From positions 1 to 52,092 of the forward strand of contig JAAYVM010000216.1 of the NCBI GenBank assembly GCA_012517145.1: a stretch of DNA of 52,092 nt, read 5' to 3'. Position numbers and translations under genes: made by a program. Shown piece after piece: positions 19,911-34,985 of the stretch. A model generated the notes under the pieces. It saw nothing but the letters and a program-made list of their open reading frames with translations. It did not search any database and was not told the origin of the DNA. Every line of letters starts with the position of its first letter. Position 1 is the first letter of the stretch. This DNA is from Acholeplasmataceae bacterium (lineage in GTDB: Bacteria > Bacillota > Negativicutes > Acidaminococcales > Acidaminococcaceae).

Positions 19911-21605
19911 ATGAGAAAAATGCGCTTAATAGTACTGTTTTCGTTATTTTTACTTCTTTTCACACAGATTGCCGCGGCGGGAACACCGCTTATTACCGTT
20001 GATGAGCTACGCCCTGGCATGCATGGCATAGCGAAAACGGTAATCAAAGGTGCGGAGATTGAGACCTTTGATGTAGAGATTCTTGGCGTTACAGGTTCAC
20101 AGGCAGAAGGCCACAGTATATTGGTCAAGGCTTCCGGTGACCTGATTGAGCGTTCGGGCGGCATAGCACAGGGTATGAGCGGTAGTCCGGTATATATTAA
20201 CGGCCGTTTGGCGGGGGCTGTTGCCTATGGCAAAGCATTTTCCGACCCAGATTATTGTTTTTTAACACCAATTGAAGAAATGCTCACAATGTTTGAGAAA
20301 ACAGATGAAAGACCATCTGCCTTTTTGCCTAAGAATTCGCCATTAATGGCCAGCGGCTTTACTGCCGAAGGCATGAAATATCTTACGGAAAAACTGTCAA
20401 CACTGGACCTGAAGCCACTAGCTGTGCCTACAGGACAGAAAGAAATTGAAAATGTACAACTCGAACCGGGCAGCTCAGTCGGTGTTGAGTTGATTCGCGG
20501 TGATATTCGTTTGGGGGCTATCGGCACTGTGACCTGGATGGACGACGAAGGCAGGATTTTGGCGTTTGGACATCCTTTCCTGCAACGCGGGAATGCTGAT
20601 TATTTTATGACCAATGCGTGGATTTTTGCTTCAATTCCTAACGTAGAGAGTTCTTATAAAGTGGGTGCTTTGGGCAATACTCTTGGTGCTGTTACACAAG
20701 ACAGAGCTGCAGGTATTGCCGGTAAAATAAATCAATACCCTCACATTATCCCTATGTTTGTTTCGGTAACGGATACGGACCGAGGTATCAATAAGAGCGC
20801 GACAGTGCAAATGGTTACTGACGAAGCGCTTGTGCCTTTGATGCTTGACGCAGTCTGCTTTAATACCGTCAGCGCTACGACTGACCGTAACGGCGGCGGA
20901 ACAGCAAGGGTAAACTTTCATATCACGGCTCGTGGCGAGAATAGCGGAGAAATTAACATAGTACGTGAGAACATGTTCTATAACCCAAGCAATCTTGCAA
21001 AGGCAATCAATGGTGAACTTGTCTATATCGGTGATTTGTTGATGAACAATAAATTTGAAAAGGTCACCCTTTTTGACGTCAATGTCAACATCGAAGCCAG
21101 TTCACGCTGTGATGTAGCAGAGATTACGCGTGTCAATGCGCTGAATGGACAGGTAAAGGCTGGTGAGAATGTTACTGTGGAAGTTGAATTCCAACCATAT
21201 AGGAATAAGAAATTTACCAAGACCTTTGAATTTAAAGTGCCGTCTAACCGTGAGCCAGGACCAATGCCGCTGATTGTTCGCGGCGGCGGAGCGTCGGCTT
21301 GGCTGGCCACTGTTTTACAAAAGCAGCAGTCAGCAGATGCTGTGCCTAAACTTGACGACAAAAAGACATTGAACGATTATCTGCAGGATTTTAAAGATTA
21401 TGATAAGAACAATGAGCTTATCATAGATATCATGCCGGGAATGTCAGCAGCCCCAACAACAAAAGGCGGCGACAAACCAGCTGAAGAACAACAGGCGGCC
21501 ATGACCGTAAAGTCTCTGTTCAAAGGCAGTAAGGCTAAACAAAAATACCCTGTTGATTTTATTGTCGACGGCGAGACTGAGATTATGGTACAAGTTGTCC
21601 GTTAG
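19911..21605 (+). CDS. SpoIVB-like S55 family serine peptidase, exported
   Basis: The 564-residue protein has a signal peptide (about 1-23). A SpoIVB/S55 peptidase domain follows, with the GMSGSPVYINGRLAGAVAYG active-serine block at residues 88-107 and GHPFLQRGNADYF further on. SpoIVB is a sporulation signalling protease in Bacillus. Here the neighbours are wall and outer-membrane genes, so a periplasmic processing or envelope role is more likely. The C-terminal 230 residues have no recognised domain and include a Lys/Asp-rich stretch near 475-540. ATG 19911 has only a weak GAGG; ATG 19920 is an alternative. It has its own terminator. Confidence 0.82.
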   Translation: MRKMRLIVLFSLFLLLFTQIAAAGTPLITVDELRPGMHGIAKTVIKGAEIETFDVEILGVTGSQAEGHSILVKASGDLIERSGGIAQGMSGSPVYINGRLAGAVAYGKAFSDPDYCFLTPIEEMLTMFEKTDERPSAFLPKNSPLMASGFTAEGMKYLTEKLSTLDLKPLAVPTGQKEIENVQLEPGSSVGVELIRGDIRLGAIGTVTWMDDEGRILAFGHPFLQRGNADYFMTNAWIFASIPNVESSYKVGALGNTLGAVTQDRAAGIAGKINQYPHIIPMFVSVTDTDRGINKSATVQMVTDEALVPLMLDAVCFNTVSATTDRNGGGTARVNFHITARGENSGEINIVRENMFYNPSNLAKAINGELVYIGDLLMNNKFEKVTLFDVNVNIEASSRCDVAEITRVNALNGQVKAGENVTVEVEFQPYRNKKFTKTFEFKVPSNREPGPMPLIVRGGGASAWLATVLQKQQSADAVPKLDDKKTLNDYLQDFKDYDKNNELIIDIMPGMSAAPTTKGGDKPAEEQQAAMTVKSLFKGSKAKQKYPVDFIVDGETEIMVQVVR

Positions 21606-26022: not shown

Positions 26023-26133
26023 GTGAATTTTTTGTGTGATTATTTTACAGGGCAGGGAAGATGCTTTTCAATGTCGAATAAGTATCCGATTAGTTTTGTT
26101 TAAGAGTGATAATAAATCATGGGGGCAAAATTC

Positions 26134-29100
26134 ATGTCGAAAGCAAAGGCTGTTTTCCTAATACTAGCAGCACTGTTGATGGGCTATTTTGCGGTTTTGC
26201 GCCTTTTCATGCCTGGTTTTTTACAACAGATGATACCGCTGGTGCAAACTACAGCGGCAGAATACGTTAATGGAGAAATAAATATCGGGTCTTTGCACGT
26301 GTCGGATTCTCTGCAGATAGCAGCCGATGATGTCGCTGTTTATGACACAAAGGGCAAACTGGTAGCTTCCTCGCCATCTGTCACAGTAAGCTTCAATTTG
26401 TGGAAGGGCCTCATGCAAGCTGACCCTATCAAGGCTGTTAACAAGATTACTGTTAACCAGCCTGTTTTCCATTTGCAAATGGATGACAAAGAACATTGGA
26501 ATGTCAAAGATGTCATTAAGCAAAGAGAACCGGAAAAGAGCAGATTTGCCGGCCTCGTCAAAATTGTTGACGGGCGCAGTGAAGTAGCCACACCTTTTGG
26601 CAATTGGAGTTTTGGCGTCGATGGCAGCATTGATGCCGCGGCTAATCCGGATTATGAGCTGAATATCGTGCTTGCTTATGGTGGCGAAAACTGGAAGATA
26701 ACAGGTCTTGTCAATACTGAAGCAAAGGGCCATTTGTTTTTACAAACAGAACATTTTGCTCTTGACCCTTTTAGCGCCCTGGCAAAACGTTATTTGGAAA
26801 TAGAAGGTCTGAAGGGTTCTGTTAAAGATCTGCATCTGCGTTGGTCAGGAGATGGCAAGGATGTTGCCCTCGAAGGAGCCGGTTTCTTGGCGAATGTTGC
26901 GGCTGCTAAAGACTATAAGGAAGAAAAATTGCCCATTGTACTGAACGGCAAAGTGTCCTTTCACCAGCAAGTGGTAGAAGCGGTTGGTCTTGATTTTACA
27001 GTTAATGGTGAAAAAGGCCGTCTTAACGGCAAACTTGATTTAAGTAATATCGAGGAGCCTTTGGCTGATGATCTTTCCGTAGAACTTTTTGCGTTTGATT
27101 TGCAAAAGGCTTTGGCATCTTCACCTCTTGGCGGTAAAATAGCAGGGTCACTGGTATTGAATGGTACGCAGGCAGATTTCAATGCCAATGGAGTTTTTAA
27201 TGCTGAAGAACTTGACTATAATGGCCAGATTTTTTCCAATGTGCGTCTGCCGCTTTCCGCGCAGAACAGCAAGATAGTAATACCAGGTGCCAAAGCCGAA
27301 TATGGCGGCGGCAGTCTTTTCCTTTTTGGTGAATATGAAGTAAATGAAGGAGATTTTTCTGCGGCGCTGGAGTGTGATAACGCCAACATTGCAGGTTTAG
27401 CAGGTTTGGCGGGTGAAAATGCTGTTCTTTCCGGCGATGTCGCTCTTTCAGGAAAAGTCAAAGGAGAGCAAGGTAAAATCAATGCGGTAGCTAAGATGGC
27501 TGCTTTGAGCTGGCGCAATAATATATTCAGGGATTTTCGTCTGGATGTCGATTACAACCGGAATAATATAGTTATCAATAACCTTTCCGGCTACTGCAAC
27601 GACGATGGTTCACTTGTCGCACAGGGTAGTATTACTGGCGGCAATATTGCGGCTGAAGCGCGTATCGCTAACTTCCCGCTGCAGCCATTCCTTTCTTTGG
27701 CCGGTCAGGAAGGAGATGGCAAGCTGACGGGTACTTTTGTCGTCAGTGGGACTACTGCTTCACCGCAGGTCAAAGGTACGGCGAGAGTGACTGACGGCGA
27801 AATTTTAAAACAAAAAGTAACTGACGCTCATGGTTCTTTCTCGTGGCTCAATAAGCGATTACAAATTGATGGGCTGGATATAAGTATGCCAGCAGGCGAA
27901 CATAAGGTAAAAGGCTGGGTTGACCTTGGCGGCGAGGAACCTTTTGTTGACTTGCAAGTTTCAACTAAAGGCATCAGAGTTGAGCCTTTGGTTGCTGCTA
28001 TTGCCCCAGATGTCGCACTTACCGGTAATCTGGACAATGAAGTTACTGTAAAAGGGACGATATCCAATCCTGAAGTTGTCGGTAAGATGAATTTTTACGA
28101 GGGCAGTCTTAATAAATATCTGCTGGATGACGCTGTAGGCGAATATAGTGTTAACGGTGGCAATCTGTATCTCAAGAATTTCGTCATTCACGCTTTGCAG
28201 ACAGAAATACACCTTGATGGTATAGTAGACAAAAACAAGAATCTTGATTTTGTGATGAATGCCAGCAAGATAGATTTGCGGAGGCTCGCAATACCTGACA
28301 AGGTAAAAGTCTCCGGGTTGGTTGACCTGAATGGTAAACTGCAGGGTACATTAGATACGCCGCTTTTTACAGGTGAATTGAATTCACGCAGTATTGTTAT
28401 TAATGGTCAGGAATTCACTGATATCATGGGTAGTCTGGAAAGCACTGCAGGGAAGGTCAACAAACTCAAAGGAAGTGCCAGACAGAACGGCGGCATATTT
28501 GGCATAGACATGTTGATTGATTTTACGAATGCTCTTTTACAAGGCAATATCGAAGTAAAAGGCGGCAATATGCAATCGTTGCTCTCTTTGGCCGGGCAGG
28601 ATTATGATATAGCGGGTGACCTTGACGGCAGCATCATAGTCAATAAAGGCGGCAAAGGAACCGGCATCAGCGTCGGTGGGCAGATACGCAATTGCAGCAT
28701 TCGCGGCATCAGTTATCCATCAGCTGTTTTTGATGTTTTTATTCACAAAGATGTACTTAATATACTTAAAGTGCGTATAGACGAGGTGCAAGGGGGTTTT
28801 CTTGCCGCACAAGGCACGGTTGATTTCCGAAATCGTAATCTGGCACTTGATGCTTTCTGCAGTGAAGCTGACGCTTCTGTACTAAATGCCTTCATTAAAG
28901 CTCCGGTTGATTTTGGCGGCAAAATGAGTTTTGCGGCTCAGGTCAGCGGTACTATTGATAATCCGGCGGCCAATGCTTCCGTGACAATCAACCAGGGGCA
29001 AATAGCGGATACTCCGTTTGATAACCTGTACGGCATGTTCACTTTACGGGATGATCTCTATAATATTGAGCAGCTTTATATTCAGAAAGATATTTATAAG

Positions 29101-30462
29101 GCGAGCGCTTATGGTGTCCTGCCGCATGATTTGTTCAGGGCAAAAGCTGATAGGAGAAATCCTGATGCACAGATGTCGATCAAGGTAAAACTTGATAATG
29201 CGAACCTGGCTATTTTGCCAATGCTCAATAAGAATGTGGAGAGCGGCAGCGGCGAGACCAATGGTTCACTTATGCTGACAGGTACCTTAGAAGAGCCGCT
29301 TGTTGACGGCACCTTCAATATCAATAACGGCACGCTTAAATTTAAACAAATGTCTACTTTAATCGAAAATTTGAAGATGGCTGTGAAATTTGAAGGACGC
29401 ATGCTGCGTCTTGAAGAAATGTCGGCTAAAATCGGACCGAATGGCAAACTGAATGCTAATGGTACTTTTGCCTTGGTTGACGGCGATAGCAATCCTTACC
29501 AACTGAATGTGAAAGCTGACAATGTAGAAATAGCATCGCCAATTTTCAGCGGTATGATCAATGGCAAAGCCACTGTGACCCAACAGCGAAACAGACCTCA
29601 TATTGCCAGTGAAGTTCGTCTGGATAAGGTTCTTGTCAATATGCCGACGATTCCGGAATTACAACCGGGAGAATCTAACATAGGGCTAGATATCAAAATT
29701 GAACTCGGACCTGAAATCCATCTTTACAACAAATACCTTTATGACCTGTGGCTGGCCGGAGGTTTGCATATTATGGGCAGTACGAGGTATACTAATGTGG
29801 ATGGATCACTGTCGGCAACAAAAGGAACCGTCAGTTATTTAAGAACACCTTTCAAAATAAGAAAGGCCACGGCAGGTTTTCCGACGCCAGGTTCTGTTAT
29901 ACCAACCATTAATCTCGATTCCTATACTAAATTCGGACGTTATAATGTGAATATGCAGATTGATGGTCCGCTCGACCAGATGGAATTGCGCTTGTCTTCT
30001 GACCCGCCATTAAGCCAGCAGGAATTATTCAGAATGTTGACTTTGAAAAGTTATAGCAATGGCAACGGTACAAGCGGTAATGGCCTGGAAAGCCAGGACC
30101 TGCAGGCACTTCTTGATGTCGGCATCGAGATGACTTTCTTAAGAGACGTAGAGACTCTCTTTAAAGAAGAACTTAATCTTGATCAGTTCCGGGTTTACAG
30201 CGGTAATACAGCAACAGGCATCGGCTTTGATATTAATGCCAAAAATTCCAGCGAGTTTACGCAGGAAGAAAAAGAACAATATAATGTATTGGTGAGCAAG
30301 TATGTCACGGATAATATCCTGGTTGGCTATGCAACAAGCCTGGACGGCCAGTATCATGATGTCTTTACCCAGTACGAGGTTAATAAAAATATCACTGTTA
30401 ATTTTTCGCTTGATGAAGAACAGAAGAAATGGTATGGAGTAGAGTACCACATTTCATTCTGA
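26134..30462 (+). CDS. tamB: TamB/DUF490 family translocation and lipid-transport protein
   Basis: This very large protein of 1442 residues has one N-terminal membrane anchor (about 4-28) and an otherwise beta-rich, repetitive body. Many strands follow the pattern G-x-(hydrophobic)-x-G (for example GKLTGTFVVSGTTASPQVKGTA). This is typical of AsmA/TamB proteins, which form a hydrophobic groove across the periplasm. The conserved C-terminal TamB domain is present from about residue 1130, including SSDPPLSQQELFRMLTL and the closing YGVEYHISF. In diderms it takes part in phospholipid transport and outer-membrane protein assembly. ATG 26134 follows GGGGGC; ATG 26119 is upstream of that site. No TamA gene is adjacent, but a BamA gene is nearby. 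Confidence 0.92.
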   Translation: MSKAKAVFLILAALLMGYFAVLRLFMPGFLQQMIPLVQTTAAEYVNGEINIGSLHVSDSLQIAADDVAVYDTKGKLVASSPSVTVSFNLWKGLMQADPIKAVNKITVNQPVFHLQMDDKEHWNVKDVIKQREPEKSRFAGLVKIVDGRSEVATPFGNWSFGVDGSIDAAANPDYELNIVLAYGGENWKITGLVNTEAKGHLFLQTEHFALDPFSALAKRYLEIEGLKGSVKDLHLRWSGDGKDVALEGAGFLANVAAAKDYKEEKLPIVLNGKVSFHQQVVEAVGLDFTVNGEKGRLNGKLDLSNIEEPLADDLSVELFAFDLQKALASSPLGGKIAGSLVLNGTQADFNANGVFNAEELDYNGQIFSNVRLPLSAQNSKIVIPGAKAEYGGGSLFLFGEYEVNEGDFSAALECDNANIAGLAGLAGENAVLSGDVALSGKVKGEQGKINAVAKMAALSWRNNIFRDFRLDVDYNRNNIVINNLSGYCNDDGSLVAQGSITGGNIAAEARIANFPLQPFLSLAGQEGDGKLTGTFVVSGTTASPQVKGTARVTDGEILKQKVTDAHGSFSWLNKRLQIDGLDISMPAGEHKVKGWVDLGGEEPFVDLQVSTKGIRVEPLVAAIAPDVALTGNLDNEVTVKGTISNPEVVGKMNFYEGSLNKYLLDDAVGEYSVNGGNLYLKNFVIHALQTEIHLDGIVDKNKNLDFVMNASKIDLRRLAIPDKVKVSGLVDLNGKLQGTLDTPLFTGELNSRSIVINGQEFTDIMGSLESTAGKVNKLKGSARQNGGIFGIDMLIDFTNALLQGNIEVKGGNMQSLLSLAGQDYDIAGDLDGSIIVNKGGKGTGISVGGQIRNCSIRGISYPSAVFDVFIHKDVLNILKVRIDEVQGGFLAAQGTVDFRNRNLALDAFCSEADASVLNAFIKAPVDFGGKMSFAAQVSGTIDNPAANASVTINQGQIADTPFDNLYGMFTLRDDLYNIEQLYIQKDIYKASAYGVLPHDLFRAKADRRNPDAQMSIKVKLDNANLAILPMLNKNVESGSGETNGSLMLTGTLEEPLVDGTFNINNGTLKFKQMSTLIENLKMAVKFEGRMLRLEEMSAKIGPNGKLNANGTFALVDGDSNPYQLNVKADNVEIASPIFSGMINGKATVTQQRNRPHIASEVRLDKVLVNMPTIPELQPGESNIGLDIKIELGPEIHLYNKYLYDLWLAGGLHIMGSTRYTNVDGSLSATKGTVSYLRTPFKIRKATAGFPTPGSVIPTINLDSYTKFGRYNVNMQIDGPLDQMELRLSSDPPLSQQELFRMLTLKSYSNGNGTSGNGLESQDLQALLDVGIEMTFLRDVETLFKEELNLDQFRVYSGNTATGIGFDINAKNSSEFTQEEKEQYNVLVSKYVTDNILVGYATSLDGQYHDVFTQYEVNKNITVNFSLDEEQKKWYGVEYHISF

Positions 30463-30475
30463 GAAGGAGTACTAG

Positions 30476-31111
30476 GTGCTGAACAGCTATCTGGAAGAAC
30501 TGAAAAAAATAAAATTGCTGTCACGGGAAGAGGAGCTCAAGCTGTGGGAAGCCTGCGCGGCAGGCAGTGAAGATGCTCATCACCGTTTGATTAGTTCTTA
30601 CCAACCCCTTGTTTTCAAAGTGGCAATGGGTTTCCGTTTGCCGGAAGCCCAGATAAGGGAATTGATTCAGGAGGGAACGGTTGGTTTGCTGGAAGCTGCT
30701 GAACGCTACGACTACCAAAAAGGTGTAGCTTTCAGTCTTTTTGCCGTGCATCGCATCAAGGGCAGGATGTTGGATTATTTGGAGCGTGAATACGGCAAAA
30801 AAACCTTATCGCTCGACAGTGAAACTAATGAAGGCAGCGGTATTTCCTGGGCAGAATGTCTGATTTCCAACGAAATATCCCCTGCTGAGAATGTTGAGAG
30901 GGAATTTCTTTCCGGCAAAATACTGGAAGCTATGGACAGACTTTCTGTGAACGAGCAGAAAGTCTTGTCCGGTATTTATATTGATTATAAATCAGCCAGC
31001 GATCTGGCAGCGGACATTCATGTTTCACCAAGCCATATTTATCGTTTGCAGAAAAAAGCAGTCAGGCGTGTGCGCGGAATGCTTTCGCGGTTGATGGCGG
31101 AAATAAAATAG
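30476..31111 (+). CDS. Sigma-70 family RNA polymerase sigma factor
   Basis: The 211-residue protein has sigma region 2 at about 37-110 (HRLISSYQPLVFKVA, LIQEGTVGLLEAAERYDYQKG, FSLFAVHRIKGRMLDYL). Region 4 spans about 150-205 (MDRLSVNEQKVLSG, then a helix-turn-helix including SASDLAADIHVSPSHIYRLQKKA). Region 3 is short, which resembles alternative sigma factors rather than the housekeeping one. It starts at GTG 30476, only 13 bases after tamB, so it is co-transcribed with an envelope gene. The next gene is a single-pass membrane protein. A role in envelope or outer-membrane gene control is inferred from position. Confidence 0.88.
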   Translation: MLNSYLEELKKIKLLSREEELKLWEACAAGSEDAHHRLISSYQPLVFKVAMGFRLPEAQIRELIQEGTVGLLEAAERYDYQKGVAFSLFAVHRIKGRMLDYLEREYGKKTLSLDSETNEGSGISWAECLISNEISPAENVEREFLSGKILEAMDRLSVNEQKVLSGIYIDYKSASDLAADIHVSPSHIYRLQKKAVRRVRGMLSRLMAEIK

Positions 31112-31273
31112 AGCTAGCTGAAGAAAAACAGTCATATTGACTAGATATTTTGATTAAAAGTGCTAAAAACACCGAAAAATGGGCTAAATTTACTATTTTT
31201 CACAGATTAATATTTACGTTGCTTACCGATTATATAGTAGTGTGATTGAGAATCAGAGAAAGGAGTAAGCATA

Positions 31274-31780
31274 ATGTCTGGCAATATTAAAAATGTGTGC
31301 GACCATATCAAAAACGTGCGTAACAGTTTGAAAAACGCTGAGGACAGCTTCCGCAGCAATAATGATATGCGTGGTGAGTTGGATTTGATGCTCGCAGAAG
31401 CGGAAATGCAGCACTTGCGTGAGAGACGTGGATTTGCAGCCGTTTGGACACGGCAAAGACTTGCCGTTGTAGCAGCCTTTTTGCTGGTTTTAACCGGAGC
31501 AGGCGGTTGGTTTTGGGCTAAAAATTCGCTGCCGTCAAAACCTGCGGATATTGTTATCGCACAAACAACTATTATGCCGGATGAAAAGAAAATTCCCAGG
31601 TCCGCTTCTCTTATAGAAAGTGCACCGGAAAAAATAAAAACACAATCTGTGATACAGGATGAACCGCAAGTTTTACCACAAAAAACTCAACAAGTTGAAA
31701 AAGCGGGTTTACAGGTTCCTGAAAATGAAGTAAGGAATCTTGTAAGGACAGCGCGAAAGACCTTGAATGATTCTAATTAA
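31274..31780 (+). CDS. Single-pass membrane protein of unknown function, next to sigma factor
   Basis: The 168-residue protein has a charged, helical N-terminal cytoplasmic part (about 1-60), one membrane helix (about 62-83, LAVVAAFLLVLTGAGGWFWA) and a Pro/Gln/Lys-rich external tail. The layout resembles anti-sigma factors in topology, but no zinc motif (HxxxCxxC) or recognised anti-sigma domain is present. ATG 31274 follows AAAGGAG. It overlaps the upstream edge of the bamA leader. The pairing with the sigma gene is suggestive only. Confidence 0.75.
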   Translation: MSGNIKNVCDHIKNVRNSLKNAEDSFRSNNDMRGELDLMLAEAEMQHLRERRGFAAVWTRQRLAVVAAFLLVLTGAGGWFWAKNSLPSKPADIVIAQTTIMPDEKKIPRSASLIESAPEKIKTQSVIQDEPQVLPQKTQQVEKAGLQVPENEVRNLVRTARKTLNDSN

Positions 31781-31793
31781 CAGGGGGCTCGTT

Positions 31794-33668
31794 ATGAAAA
31801 AGAAAAAAATGTGGCGACCAATTGCAATGGGAATGGCAGCAACTTTGCTTGTTGCACTGCCGGTATACGCTGAAGAAACGAATCCAGATTCCGCTAAGAC
31901 AACAGAGCAAATAGCAGACACTATGCTGCCGACTGACCCTGCCGCACCTCAGAAGGGTAATACGGACAATATCAAGATTGCCTCGGCAGAAGAAGTCAAT
32001 TCCTATGTTGGCCAGACTGTTACCAAGATCACTGTTGATGGTGACAAGCATGGCAACCATGATGCGATAATGGACGCACTGAAGGTAAAACCGGGCATGG
32101 AATTTACTAAGGACGGTATTGCAGGTGATTTACACGCAATTTACCAACTTGGCTGGTTTTACGATATTGTTCCGGAATATAAACAAGTGCCGGAAGGTGT
32201 ACAGATTACTTATCATGTAATGGAGAACCCTGTTTATAAAACACTGGTGGTTGAAGGTAATACCAAAGTTAGCACTGATAAGATCAAAAACATCATAGAC
32301 TTGCCTAAAGATAAGATAATTAACCTTAGAGACGTTAACGAAAAAGTTCGTAAAGTAGAAGCTGAATATTCCAAAGAAGGATATATATTGGCTCGCGTTA
32401 CAGATGTACGTGTTCTGCCAAGCGGTGAACTATTCGTACAGGTTAATGAAGGCATTGTTGAAGATTTCAAAATTAAAGGCAATACCAAGACCAAAGATTA
32501 CGTTATTACCCGGGAAATGAAATTGAAAAAGGGGCAGCCTTTCAACAGCAAGGACGCCCGCCGCAGTATGCAGCGCATTTATAACCTCGGTTATTTTGAG
32601 GATGTCAACATCAAGTTGAACCCTGGTAAGGCTCCTAACGCAGTTGATGTGGAGATCACGGTTGTTGAAATGAATACAGGAACATTTGGTATCGGCGCTG
32701 GCTATAGCGACGCAGATGGTTTCCTGGGCATGGTTTCCATTGGTGATAAGAATTTCCGTGGTACCGGTGATAAAGTTAATATCCGTTGGGAATTCGGTGG
32801 TGACGAGGACAACAATAAGAATTATGAATTCAGCTACACACGTCCTTGGCTTGATGATAAAGAAACCAGCGCAGGCTTAACCATTTATGATATGACCAAT
32901 GAATATGCCGACTATGACCACGATGGCGATGAAATAGCCCGCTATGACAAACAGCGCCGCGGACAGGAATTGACCTTCAGCCGCAGGACAAACAATGAAT
33001 ATGTAGTAAACTATCTGACTTTGAAAAACAGGGAAGATATTTATAAAGGCGTGGCTGATGGATACGAAAATGCTCCTCAATATTTTGAAGAAGGCGATAC
33101 CGTTGCGCGCCAAAAAGAAAACTTTGGTACGACTCGCAGCATTGGTTTTACCAGAGCATTTGATTCCCGTGATAATGTCAACGATCCGCACGAAGGTAAG
33201 CGAAATTCCTACTCGATAGAGTGGGCCGGTATGGGCGGAGACTTTGATTTCACGAAGTATTCAGCAGATTGGCGTTATTATTACCGTATGGGTGCCAGTG
33301 AAGATGTTTTGGCCTTTATGGTCGGCGCTGGTTATGCCGACGGCACGATGCCTCTGAGCCAGAGATTCGCGGTTGGCGGCTCGGACAGCCTGAGAGGCTA
33401 CAAGGATGATCAATTCAAGGGCAACAGCATGTTGAGAGGAACTCTTGAGTATAGAGTGCCATTAATGAAAAAGGTTCAGGGTGTGCTCTTTACGGACACT
33501 GGTTATGCCTGGGACAAGAATACAGAGGATAATTTCGACCTTGGTCTGATGAAATACAGCTATGGTGTTGGTTTGCGCATTAATTCCCCTTTGGGTCCAT
33601 TGCGTCTTGACTATGGTATTGGTGACGATGGCGGCCGTTTCCACTTCAGCTTTGGCGGCCAATTCTAG
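31794..33668 (+). CDS. bamA: BamA/Omp85 outer membrane assembly protein with three POTRA domains
   Basis: The 624-residue exported protein has a signal peptide (about 1-27, ending VYAEE). Three POTRA repeats follow (about 73-148, 150-225 and 228-300), then the Omp85 barrel. The barrel contains the RGY loop VGGSDSLRGYKDDQFKGN and ends in GRFHFSFGGQF with the terminal phenylalanine signal. Proteobacterial BamA has five POTRAs, so this is a compact form. It inserts beta-barrel proteins into the outer membrane. ATG 31794 follows CAGGGGG; ATG 31767 is upstream and rejected. Confidence 0.94.
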   Translation: MKKKKMWRPIAMGMAATLLVALPVYAEETNPDSAKTTEQIADTMLPTDPAAPQKGNTDNIKIASAEEVNSYVGQTVTKITVDGDKHGNHDAIMDALKVKPGMEFTKDGIAGDLHAIYQLGWFYDIVPEYKQVPEGVQITYHVMENPVYKTLVVEGNTKVSTDKIKNIIDLPKDKIINLRDVNEKVRKVEAEYSKEGYILARVTDVRVLPSGELFVQVNEGIVEDFKIKGNTKTKDYVITREMKLKKGQPFNSKDARRSMQRIYNLGYFEDVNIKLNPGKAPNAVDVEITVVEMNTGTFGIGAGYSDADGFLGMVSIGDKNFRGTGDKVNIRWEFGGDEDNNKNYEFSYTRPWLDDKETSAGLTIYDMTNEYADYDHDGDEIARYDKQRRGQELTFSRRTNNEYVVNYLTLKNREDIYKGVADGYENAPQYFEEGDTVARQKENFGTTRSIGFTRAFDSRDNVNDPHEGKRNSYSIEWAGMGGDFDFTKYSADWRYYYRMGASEDVLAFMVGAGYADGTMPLSQRFAVGGSDSLRGYKDDQFKGNSMLRGTLEYRVPLMKKVQGVLFTDTGYAWDKNTEDNFDLGLMKYSYGVGLRINSPLGPLRLDYGIGDDGGRFHFSFGGQF

Positions 33669-33701: not shown

Positions 33702-34985
33702 TTGCAATTAGGTAAAAGCAGGTTTGCCAGCTTAATAGGGCTTTGTTTTTGTCTGTTGCTAATGCCGCAAACTGGATCAGCTGCAACTATCGAAAATGTC
33801 AAGGTGAGTGTTATCGATAGTACCGGCCGGACTGCAAAAGCCCTGACGGAGCGAATGACATCCAGTATGCAGGTTGTTGCCGAACAGCTTTTTCTGGAGA
33901 AGGACACTGCGCAGATTGAACCGGTCAAAAGTGATTACGCCCGCCTGCTTGGAGAAGTTGGTGAACGAGCGCTAACCGGGTATAAAGTTGAAGAAACTGT
34001 TATCAACCTTGGCACTTCTTCAGAAATTGTTTTGAAGTTGTCACCTTGGCTGGATGTAGTAAATGATGTCGAGGTCGATTTGAAATTTTCCGGTGTTGAC
34101 CAGGCCATGTCTGAAGTTTTATTGTCCAAACTGCCTGAACTGAAAGCAAGGATCATTAAAACCGTCAGCGGTGCTTCCATAGATGCTGTCGATTGGGCTG
34201 GCGGTGTTTTGAGGCAGAAAGTCCGACAAGATATGGAGTCCATGCTGCCGGAATTCAGAGCATCGGTTGATCTTAGCCAAATCGGTAAAAAAGTCGTGGT
34301 GCAGGTCATTGTTTATCCGGTTGGACAAACAGTGCATGATGTCAAGTTCGAACTTTTATCAGAAACAGTGCCGAACATTCTTTTTATGAAGACTAAGGAA
34401 CGCTTGCACGAAGAAGCTGATGAACTCAGGGGTCTGCCTGTTGATTTTGTCAAAAAGCACAGACCAGAGCTGGAGAACCGTCTTTTAACCTCCGTCAATG
34501 AGGAAAAAGTTGTCAGCCTTTATTCTTTGAAGCCGACTGTAACCATAACACCGGGCACAGATACTTTCGTTGAAATAAGGATGGAAGCCGACAAATATAA
34601 GATTTGGATTGAAGGCTATGGTGACAGCGGCCGTGATGAAAACAATCTTTCCGGTAGAGCACATTTAGGGAAGTATATTTCAGATAATGATGAACTTTTT
34701 GCGGAGTTTTCCGTTGAGTTGGAAAACATGGAGTGGGAGTTTGCTCCGGGACTCGCTCATCGCCACGGCAAAACAACTATTGCCTACGCGAGAAGAATTA
34801 CCGAGCACGAAAATAATTATCGCCTTGAATATGATGTGTCACCGAAATGGCGGTTCAGGGCAGAACATTTCTCTGGTACGAACGTCAATGAGTTTGGAGC
34901 GCGTTTCCGCATTCACGAATTTTTGAGCGTGGAATATGTGTACTCAAACGACAAGCCCTACTTGCGTTTAATTGGTAACTTGTAG
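33702..34985 (+). CDS. Exported protein of unknown function, C-terminal beta-rich
   Basis: I do not recognise this family. The 427-residue protein has a signal peptide (about 1-28, MPQTGSAA). The N-terminal 270 residues are mixed alpha/beta with two similar halves (each with a V-x-L/V-x-V strand and a long helix), reminiscent of POTRA-like folds but without clear motifs. The last 140 residues are strand-rich with aromatics at alternating positions, as in a small outer-membrane barrel (from TFVEIRMEADKYKIWIEG to YLRLIGNL). TTG 33702 has GGGGAGGG eight bases upstream. It sits between bamA and ompH, so an outer-membrane role is likely. Confidence 0.8.
   Translation: MQLGKSRFASLIGLCFCLLLMPQTGSAATIENVKVSVIDSTGRTAKALTERMTSSMQVVAEQLFLEKDTAQIEPVKSDYARLLGEVGERALTGYKVEETVINLGTSSEIVLKLSPWLDVVNDVEVDLKFSGVDQAMSEVLLSKLPELKARIIKTVSGASIDAVDWAGGVLRQKVRQDMESMLPEFRASVDLSQIGKKVVVQVIVYPVGQTVHDVKFELLSETVPNILFMKTKERLHEEADELRGLPVDFVKKHRPELENRLLTSVNEEKVVSLYSLKPTVTITPGTDTFVEIRMEADKYKIWIEGYGDSGRDENNLSGRAHLGKYISDNDELFAEFSVELENMEWEFAPGLAHRHGKTTIAYARRITEHENNYRLEYDVSPKWRFRAEHFSGTNVNEFGARFRIHEFLSVEYVYSNDKPYLRLIGNL

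Follow-up and report, generated by a model that had tools for sequence, protein, structure and literature searches.

A sigma factor paired with a single-pass membrane protein between tamB and bamA: a putative outer-membrane regulatory unit of double-membraned Bacillota

In the SigmaE-RseA system of Proteobacteria, a sigma factor is encoded beside a single-pass membrane protein and is linked to outer-membrane protein assembly. Promoters of the FliA and SigB types carry an A-rich -35 element and a G-A-T -10 element, in which T at -12 is replaced by G. RsiG, as described in the accessible text of PMC8325347, is an antiparallel coiled-coil anti-sigma factor of WhiG, with c-di-GMP motifs on the coiled-coil helices. 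The outer-membrane locus of Negativicutes and Halanaerobiales was described in a 2016 eLife paper (PMC5007114), and a term search of the available main text of that paper did not return the word "sigma". The open full-text literature searched holds no description of how double-membraned Firmicutes sense or adjust their outer membrane. No paper describing the gene pair reported here was found in that openly available literature.

The pair is located in a 52,092-nucleotide stretch of Negativicutes DNA (the window; contig JAAYVM010000216.1), where the plus-strand order is mlaD, tolC (OEP), tamB, the sigma factor gene, the small membrane protein gene, and bamA, followed 3' of bamA on the same strand by an unknown gene, two ompH-like genes, lpxD, and lpxC. 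The tamB gene (26119 to 30462; Pfam TamB, 1.5e-39) is the upstream neighbor of the pair across the fetched loci. Its stop at 30462 and the GTG start of the sigma gene (30476 to 31111) at 30476 leave exactly the 13 bases given in an earlier note made from the sequence alone. That note had also placed the membrane protein gene directly before bamA, and this was borne out, with the open reading frame (ORF) at 31274 to 31780 and bamA, the downstream partner of the unit, at 31794 to 33668 (Omp85, 2.9e-53, with POTRA matches). The bamA ORF opens at 31767; judged from the sequence, the likely start is the ATG at 31794 behind AGGGGG, a better ribosome site. A few genes upstream of the pair, positions 19911 to 21605 encode a SpoIVB-like protein of the S55 peptidase family (2.9e-15) with GMSGSP and AFGHP stretches, possibly an envelope protease near the sigma module; in many loci from outside the class, look-alikes recognized by eye immediately precede tamB, whether or not the pair is present. 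After bamA, positions 33702 to 34985 encode a 427-residue protein without Pfam matches, which was present, aligned over its N-terminal part, in 72 of 80 named loci and has look-alikes by eye outside the class.

The 211-residue sigma protein has regions 1.2, 2, and 4 of the sigma-70 family and no sigma-3 domain. It scored 90.9 bits against the sigma-70 superfamily model TIGR02937 (curated cutoff, 42.9), and region 2 was matched by Sigma70_r2 (1.1e-15; 57.6 bits, cutoff 24). The match of region 4 to Sigma70_r4 (PF04545) was barely over the cutoff (1.7e-5; 24.7 bits, cutoff 24.1), and that of region 1.2 to PF00140 was subthreshold (19.4, cutoff 22). In the alignment of relatives, the QEGxxGL stretch, through which region 2 binds the core, shows no or almost no variation. 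The AlphaFold2 model (pLDDT 85.4) consists of a helix at residues 2 to 10, sigma-2 at 17 to 106, an extended linker at 107 to 135, and sigma-4 at 136 to 209, these domain names being assigned from the family matches, and it contains no sigma-3 helices. The scores fell far below the curated cutoffs of the FliA/WhiG family TIGR02479 (80.0 bits, cutoff 189.6), the SigB/SigF/SigG family TIGR02980 (69.1, cutoff 234.35), and the RpoH family TIGR02392 (78.1, cutoff 323.1), as well as below that of the ECF-type region 4, Sigma70_r4_2 (PF08281; 14.0 bits, cutoff 25.7). The traits of the ECF group (group 4) were mixed, as the sigma-3 helices are absent from the model, yet a region 1.2 helix with its subthreshold PF00140 match is there. 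Foldseek returned RpoS, RpoH, SigA, FliA, and WhiG alike for the model, with no closer class among them. From sequence and model, the protein is best called a member of an unnamed sigma-70 group with a FliA-like region 2 and without sigma-3. In one genome (loci L028 and L110), the sigma gene looks broken, its open frame running to about 120 codons, and the partner and bamA are intact.

The partner is a 168-residue single-pass membrane protein of no known family. In the window it matched no Pfam or NCBIfam family at E ≤ 0.01, and among 73 members the anti-sigma families of Pfam and NCBIfam gave just three weak matches, all to NF052375 (best E, 0.0023). The search for a relative in the PDB gave nothing convincing (best E, 0.037). 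The structural model (pTM 0.30) has a helix at residues 3 to 28, a helix at 33 to 84 that enters the membrane, a disordered linker, and a helix at 150 to 166. The N-terminal helical hairpin (residues ~3 to 57; 31280 to 31444) is predicted to be cytosolic and carries the motif ARxWLxxAExSF....RGELDLMLAxAEL in the alignments of relatives. The membrane helix (residues ~62 to 84; 31457 to 31525) was assigned from the model and the sole hydrophobic stretch. Past the disordered linker, the conserved C-terminal helix (31721 to 31771) would be periplasmic. Basic residues stand just before the membrane helix and thereby suggest an N-in/C-out topology. The alignment contains two conserved blocks, an N-terminal one with GELDLMLA and a C-terminal one, L-V-R-x-A...L-R-G. 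The hairpin is the part that was matched in genomes outside the class; the C termini there are similar by eye, so that both ends are recognizable. The protein is probably a membrane-bound regulator, a putative anti-sigma factor.

The co-occurrence of the two genes is well shown. Among 300 genomes of the class, the sigma factor was found in 233 (E ≤ 1e-30) and the partner, sought with one sequence and then with a profile, in 222 by the one-sequence search. When the lists were compared by hand, 220 genomes had both, 13 the sigma factor alone, and 2 the partner alone. The profile recovered the partner in all 13, and thus every sigma-bearing class genome (233/233) also carries it, which bears out the conservation in Negativicutes that the earlier note had proposed as a check. 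As for the two genomes with the partner alone at first, a sigma fragment sits at the contig end in one (G026), and in the other (G210) the partner begins 360 bases from the first base of the contig. In a sample of 299 genomes of the phylum, the sigma factor was present in 19, and convincing partner matches (E ≤ 2.8e-12 with the N-terminal part covered) were obtained in the same 19. Weak profile matches in 27 further genomes (E, 1.4e-6 to 8.2e-4) covered mostly the membrane and low-complexity part and were dropped before this count. Omp85 was found in 77 of the 299 genomes, including all 19 carriers, and the pair was absent from all 222 genomes that lack Omp85. Fifty-eight of the 77 Omp85 genomes have no pair, and the pair is therefore dispensable. 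Among the named carriers are Phascolarctobacterium, Succiniclasticum, Pelosinus, Megasphaera, Negativicoccus, Anaeroglobus, and Propionispora.

The gene order was conserved as well. The order tamB, sigma, partner, bamA was observed in the fetched class loci that were long enough at both ends to be judged, and the four genes stay together in the 11 of the 19 phylum carriers that fall outside the class. In those 11 loci the sigma factor was a called ORF in 10, and by profile both genes were on one strand in all. Over all loci examined, sigma factor and partner were on the same strand in 169 of 169, a set in which many loci represent one genome fetched twice and most were picked by the partner match. 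In one locus outside the class (L181, genome G446), a 3.2-kb insertion splits sigma factor and partner and both genes are kept; by eye, its two further ORFs resemble a methyltransferase fragment and an HD-type protein.

Absence was also joint. In the pair-less class genomes G015, G243, G118, G048, G008, G057, and G062, tamB is next to bamA; bamA directly follows tamB in seven pair-less class loci (L238, L246, L253 to L256, and L260), and the two genes abut in the majority of the loci outside the class that have no pair. In one pair-less locus (L259, genome G058), bamA has moved from tamB and now follows a groEL-like gene. A quick BamA tree was made with 73 rows; five changes were required to account for the class rows without the pair, counting the doubtful locus L258 discussed below, and pair-less G062 (L246) was sister to a carrier with support of 100. 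The carriers outside the class were scattered among noncarriers. The simplest reading of these data is that an old pair was lost repeatedly, both genes together; alternatively, the distribution may have arisen by transfer of the whole cluster. In Veillonella parvula, TamB and BamA have the neighboring locus tags Vpar_0526 and Vpar_0527 in the accessible text of PMC5491611, an adjacency that is consistent with absence of the pair from this species.

A conserved promoter-like element was detected in the gap between the sigma and partner genes. When 93 such gaps of under 75% similarity were searched, the motif found consisted of AAAAT, about 15 nt, and then GATTATATA. The 34-column motif scored 1399, compared to 709 to 897 in five shuffled sets, and a 12-column motif scored 940, compared to 594 to 636. 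A matrix was then built from 75 sites (75 of the 93 gaps kept, with sites 45 to 75 nt from the start and GA at columns 24 and 25, plus the site of the window); the window's own site had been placed wrongly by the motif finder, and the GATTATATAG site was substituted by hand before the matrix was made. Columns 24, 25, and 29 were 97 to 98% conserved, with G at 98%, A at 98%, T four columns past that A at 97%, and then A at 89%. Region 2 domains of the sigma-70 type need A-11 and T-7. It is at these positions that the motif has its near-invariant A and T, and G replaces T at -12.

In the window the 34-column element occupies 31205 to 31238 of the plus strand. The conserved -10 part is GATTATATA at 31228 to 31236, that is, GATTAT(ATA), and the in-register proposed -10 hexamer is therefore GATTAT at 31228 to 31233, with A-11 at 31229 and T-7 at 31233. 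The -35-like block at 31208 to 31212 is weak and A-rich, reading TAATA here and thus matching the family consensus AAAAT poorly in this genome. The earlier note had singled out a TATAGT without a normal -35 in this gap. This hexamer is present at 31233 to 31238, and no sigma-70 promoter using it emerged from the consensus scan; taken as a unit, it is off register, being the tail of the GATTATATA element with its A-rich -35-like block and starting on the last base of GATTAT. The one plus-strand match of the sigma-70 consensus scan in the gap lies at 31246 to 31275 and overlaps the start codon, and over the region five consensus promoters were found compared to 2.8 ± 1.5 in shuffles.

The specificity of the element was assessed with matrices from which similar sites were left out. 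With its own site omitted, the GATTATATAG site ranked best in the gap of the window, with p 0.06 for the whole motif and p 0.005 for the -10 block. At p ≤ 0.05 the element was found in 71 of the 93 sigma-partner gaps, the other 22 failing, and in 1 of 25 bamA-upstream regions from pair-less loci (9 from the class and 16 others; L257 is absent, as bamA was not called there, and L230, which carries the pair, was left out). The flank of this single match, L258 (G153), encodes a fragment like the C terminus of the partner (E, 1.7e-4); the locus may be a carrier cut by the contig end and was kept among the pair-less counts. As a control, the regions preceding 13 other cluster genes in 80 named loci gave 55 of 735 (7.5%) at p ≤ 0.05; an apparent excess for mlaD came from wrongly sliced locus ends and was discounted. 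The matrix used for these control regions found 69 of 80 for the membrane protein gene itself, a partly circular figure because some of those sites had gone into the matrix, and the leave-similar-out figures were therefore relied upon. Over the 52 kb and both strands, the element ranks fifth in the window and is therefore unrecognizable without comparison.

An extended 31-base element (≤3 mismatches) had exactly one copy, beside the pair, in 10 of 11 Sporomusaceae-type genomes, and the reversed control had no match in the 11. Near-matches to CGATTATATAG in the genome of the window numbered 26 + 25 (51), compared to 30 + 32 (62) for the reversed-pattern control, and no regulon is therefore claimed. 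The sigma-partner gap shrinks to 9 to 30 nt in certain non-class lineages, which leaves no room for a promoter between the two genes, and a search upstream of the sigma gene in these lineages gave nothing but one marginal site. In Sporomusaceae-type gaps (L036, L038, L043, L059, L121, and others), conservation extends to the spacer that separates the -35-like block from the -10 block (CTGGCCTCTT). This conservation exceeds what a sigma factor alone would need, and perhaps a second regulator binds there. Most likely, the sigma factor reads the GATTAT-type candidate promoter to express the partner and bamA.

The earlier note's suggestion of a sigma/membrane-protein module within the outer-membrane cluster is accordingly well backed by co-occurrence, synteny, co-loss, and the conserved promoter-like element; the envelope-stress role that it also named is, like the anti-sigma function, a putative one. 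We hypothesize that the two proteins form one regulatory unit of outer-membrane assembly, in which the sigma factor drives the partner and bamA and the partner is a sigma-holding sensor; taken as a whole, this explanation seems to us somewhat likelier to be right than wrong. The sigma factor would be made with TamB, being translated right behind it, and would guide RNA polymerase to the GATTAT-type promoter upstream of the membrane protein gene, giving membrane protein and BamA from a transcript that would begin some 34 nt before the ATG of the partner gene. The cytosolic helical hairpin would tether the sigma factor at the inner membrane, and the conserved C-terminal helix would sense the periplasmic side, where BamA or TamB are the candidates for what is sensed. 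Once BAM/TAM assembly became short or disturbed, the sigma factor would be freed. A membrane-bound anti-sigma factor with feedback fits because the partner would head the sigma factor's own target operon and because its most widely conserved part is presumably cytosolic. Pairwise distances in 38 genomes gave a partial correlation of 0.38 between the hairpin and the sigma factor and of 0.41 between the C-terminal helix and BamA. In 49 other loci the hairpin-sigma values shrank to 0.12 to 0.13 with intervals touching zero, and the value for the C-terminal helix with the first half of BamA was 0.22, in a set where the positive control (the two sigma halves) gave -0.02.

The co-occurrence and promoter evidence would be shared in full by a reading in which the sigma factor drives the membrane protein and bamA, with the membrane protein acting as an effector that assists the BAM/TAM machinery instead of as an anti-sigma factor. 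Its gene adjoins bamA and its C-terminal helix is conserved, as would suit an accessory, but the part best conserved beyond the class is the putatively cytosolic hairpin, which a BAM accessory would not need, and we consider this reading rather unlikely. It is less probable still that the element is a housekeeping promoter or the operator of another regulator, with the sigma factor acting elsewhere and the genes held together by co-expression of the cluster. A TTGCCA-N17-TATAAT reading does overlap the element in Succiniclasticum-type gaps, and the spacer conserved in Sporomusaceae-type genomes beyond the need of a bare promoter, together with the single copy of the 31-base element in 10 of 11 genomes, would suit an operator. 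However, the element is missing from 24 of 25 bamA-upstream regions without the sigma factor, the conserved -35 is not TTGACA, and the conserved first base of the -10 is not T. That the two genes are functionally unlinked bystanders is scarcely credible: a short distance and conserved synteny may come from a slowly evolving operon, but the distribution is identical across the phylum sample (19 of 299 genomes) and the genes are jointly absent on several branches.

Under the preferred reading of a sigma factor held by a membrane sensor, the pair between two outer-membrane assembly genes looks like a built-in control circuit for outer-membrane building. A further idea, possible and on balance doubtful, is that this is an ancestral, nearly single-target sigma factor of double-membraned Bacillota that tunes BamA, with its regulator first in the target operon, and that it was repeatedly lost while the outer membrane was kept. 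The single target is proposed because the 31-base element is the sole copy in 10 of 11 large genomes, and the ancestry because carriers are scattered over the BamA tree. Since the pair spans several deep lineages in the same order, it provides a regulatory character for the debate on an ancestral outer membrane in Bacillota. With defined genes in the BAM/TAM cluster, a defined putative promoter, and lineages that have neither, outer-membrane control becomes directly testable.

Compared to known systems, region 2 is most like that of FliA/sigma-28, the best local match being FliA in PDB entry 6pmi (3.6e-16). The likeness to the FliA/sigma-28 and SigB/SigF types is in region 2 (TIGR02479 and TIGR02980), whereas the protein here is far under the family cutoffs and has no sigma-3 domain; the A-rich -35 and G-A-T -10 of their promoters are resembled by the element described here. 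WhiG-RsiG (6pfv and 6pfj among the Foldseek matches) likewise combines a FliA-type region 2 with an antiparallel two-helix partner. In the accessible account RsiG carries c-di-GMP motifs, whereas the protein here is anchored in the membrane, and the resemblance seen is in the two-helix arrangement; by eye, the E(X)3S(X)2R(X)3Q(X)3D motif was not seen in the hairpin. With SigmaE-RseA, the locus shares the pairing of a sigma factor with an adjacent single-pass membrane protein and the link to outer-membrane protein assembly. It differs from that system in that its sigma factor, with a region 1.2 helix and a sigma-3.2-like linker, is non-ECF by the Pfam region 4 test, the membrane protein has a helical hairpin instead of a known anti-sigma domain, the genes lie between tamB and bamA, and the proposed promoter is of the GATTAT type.
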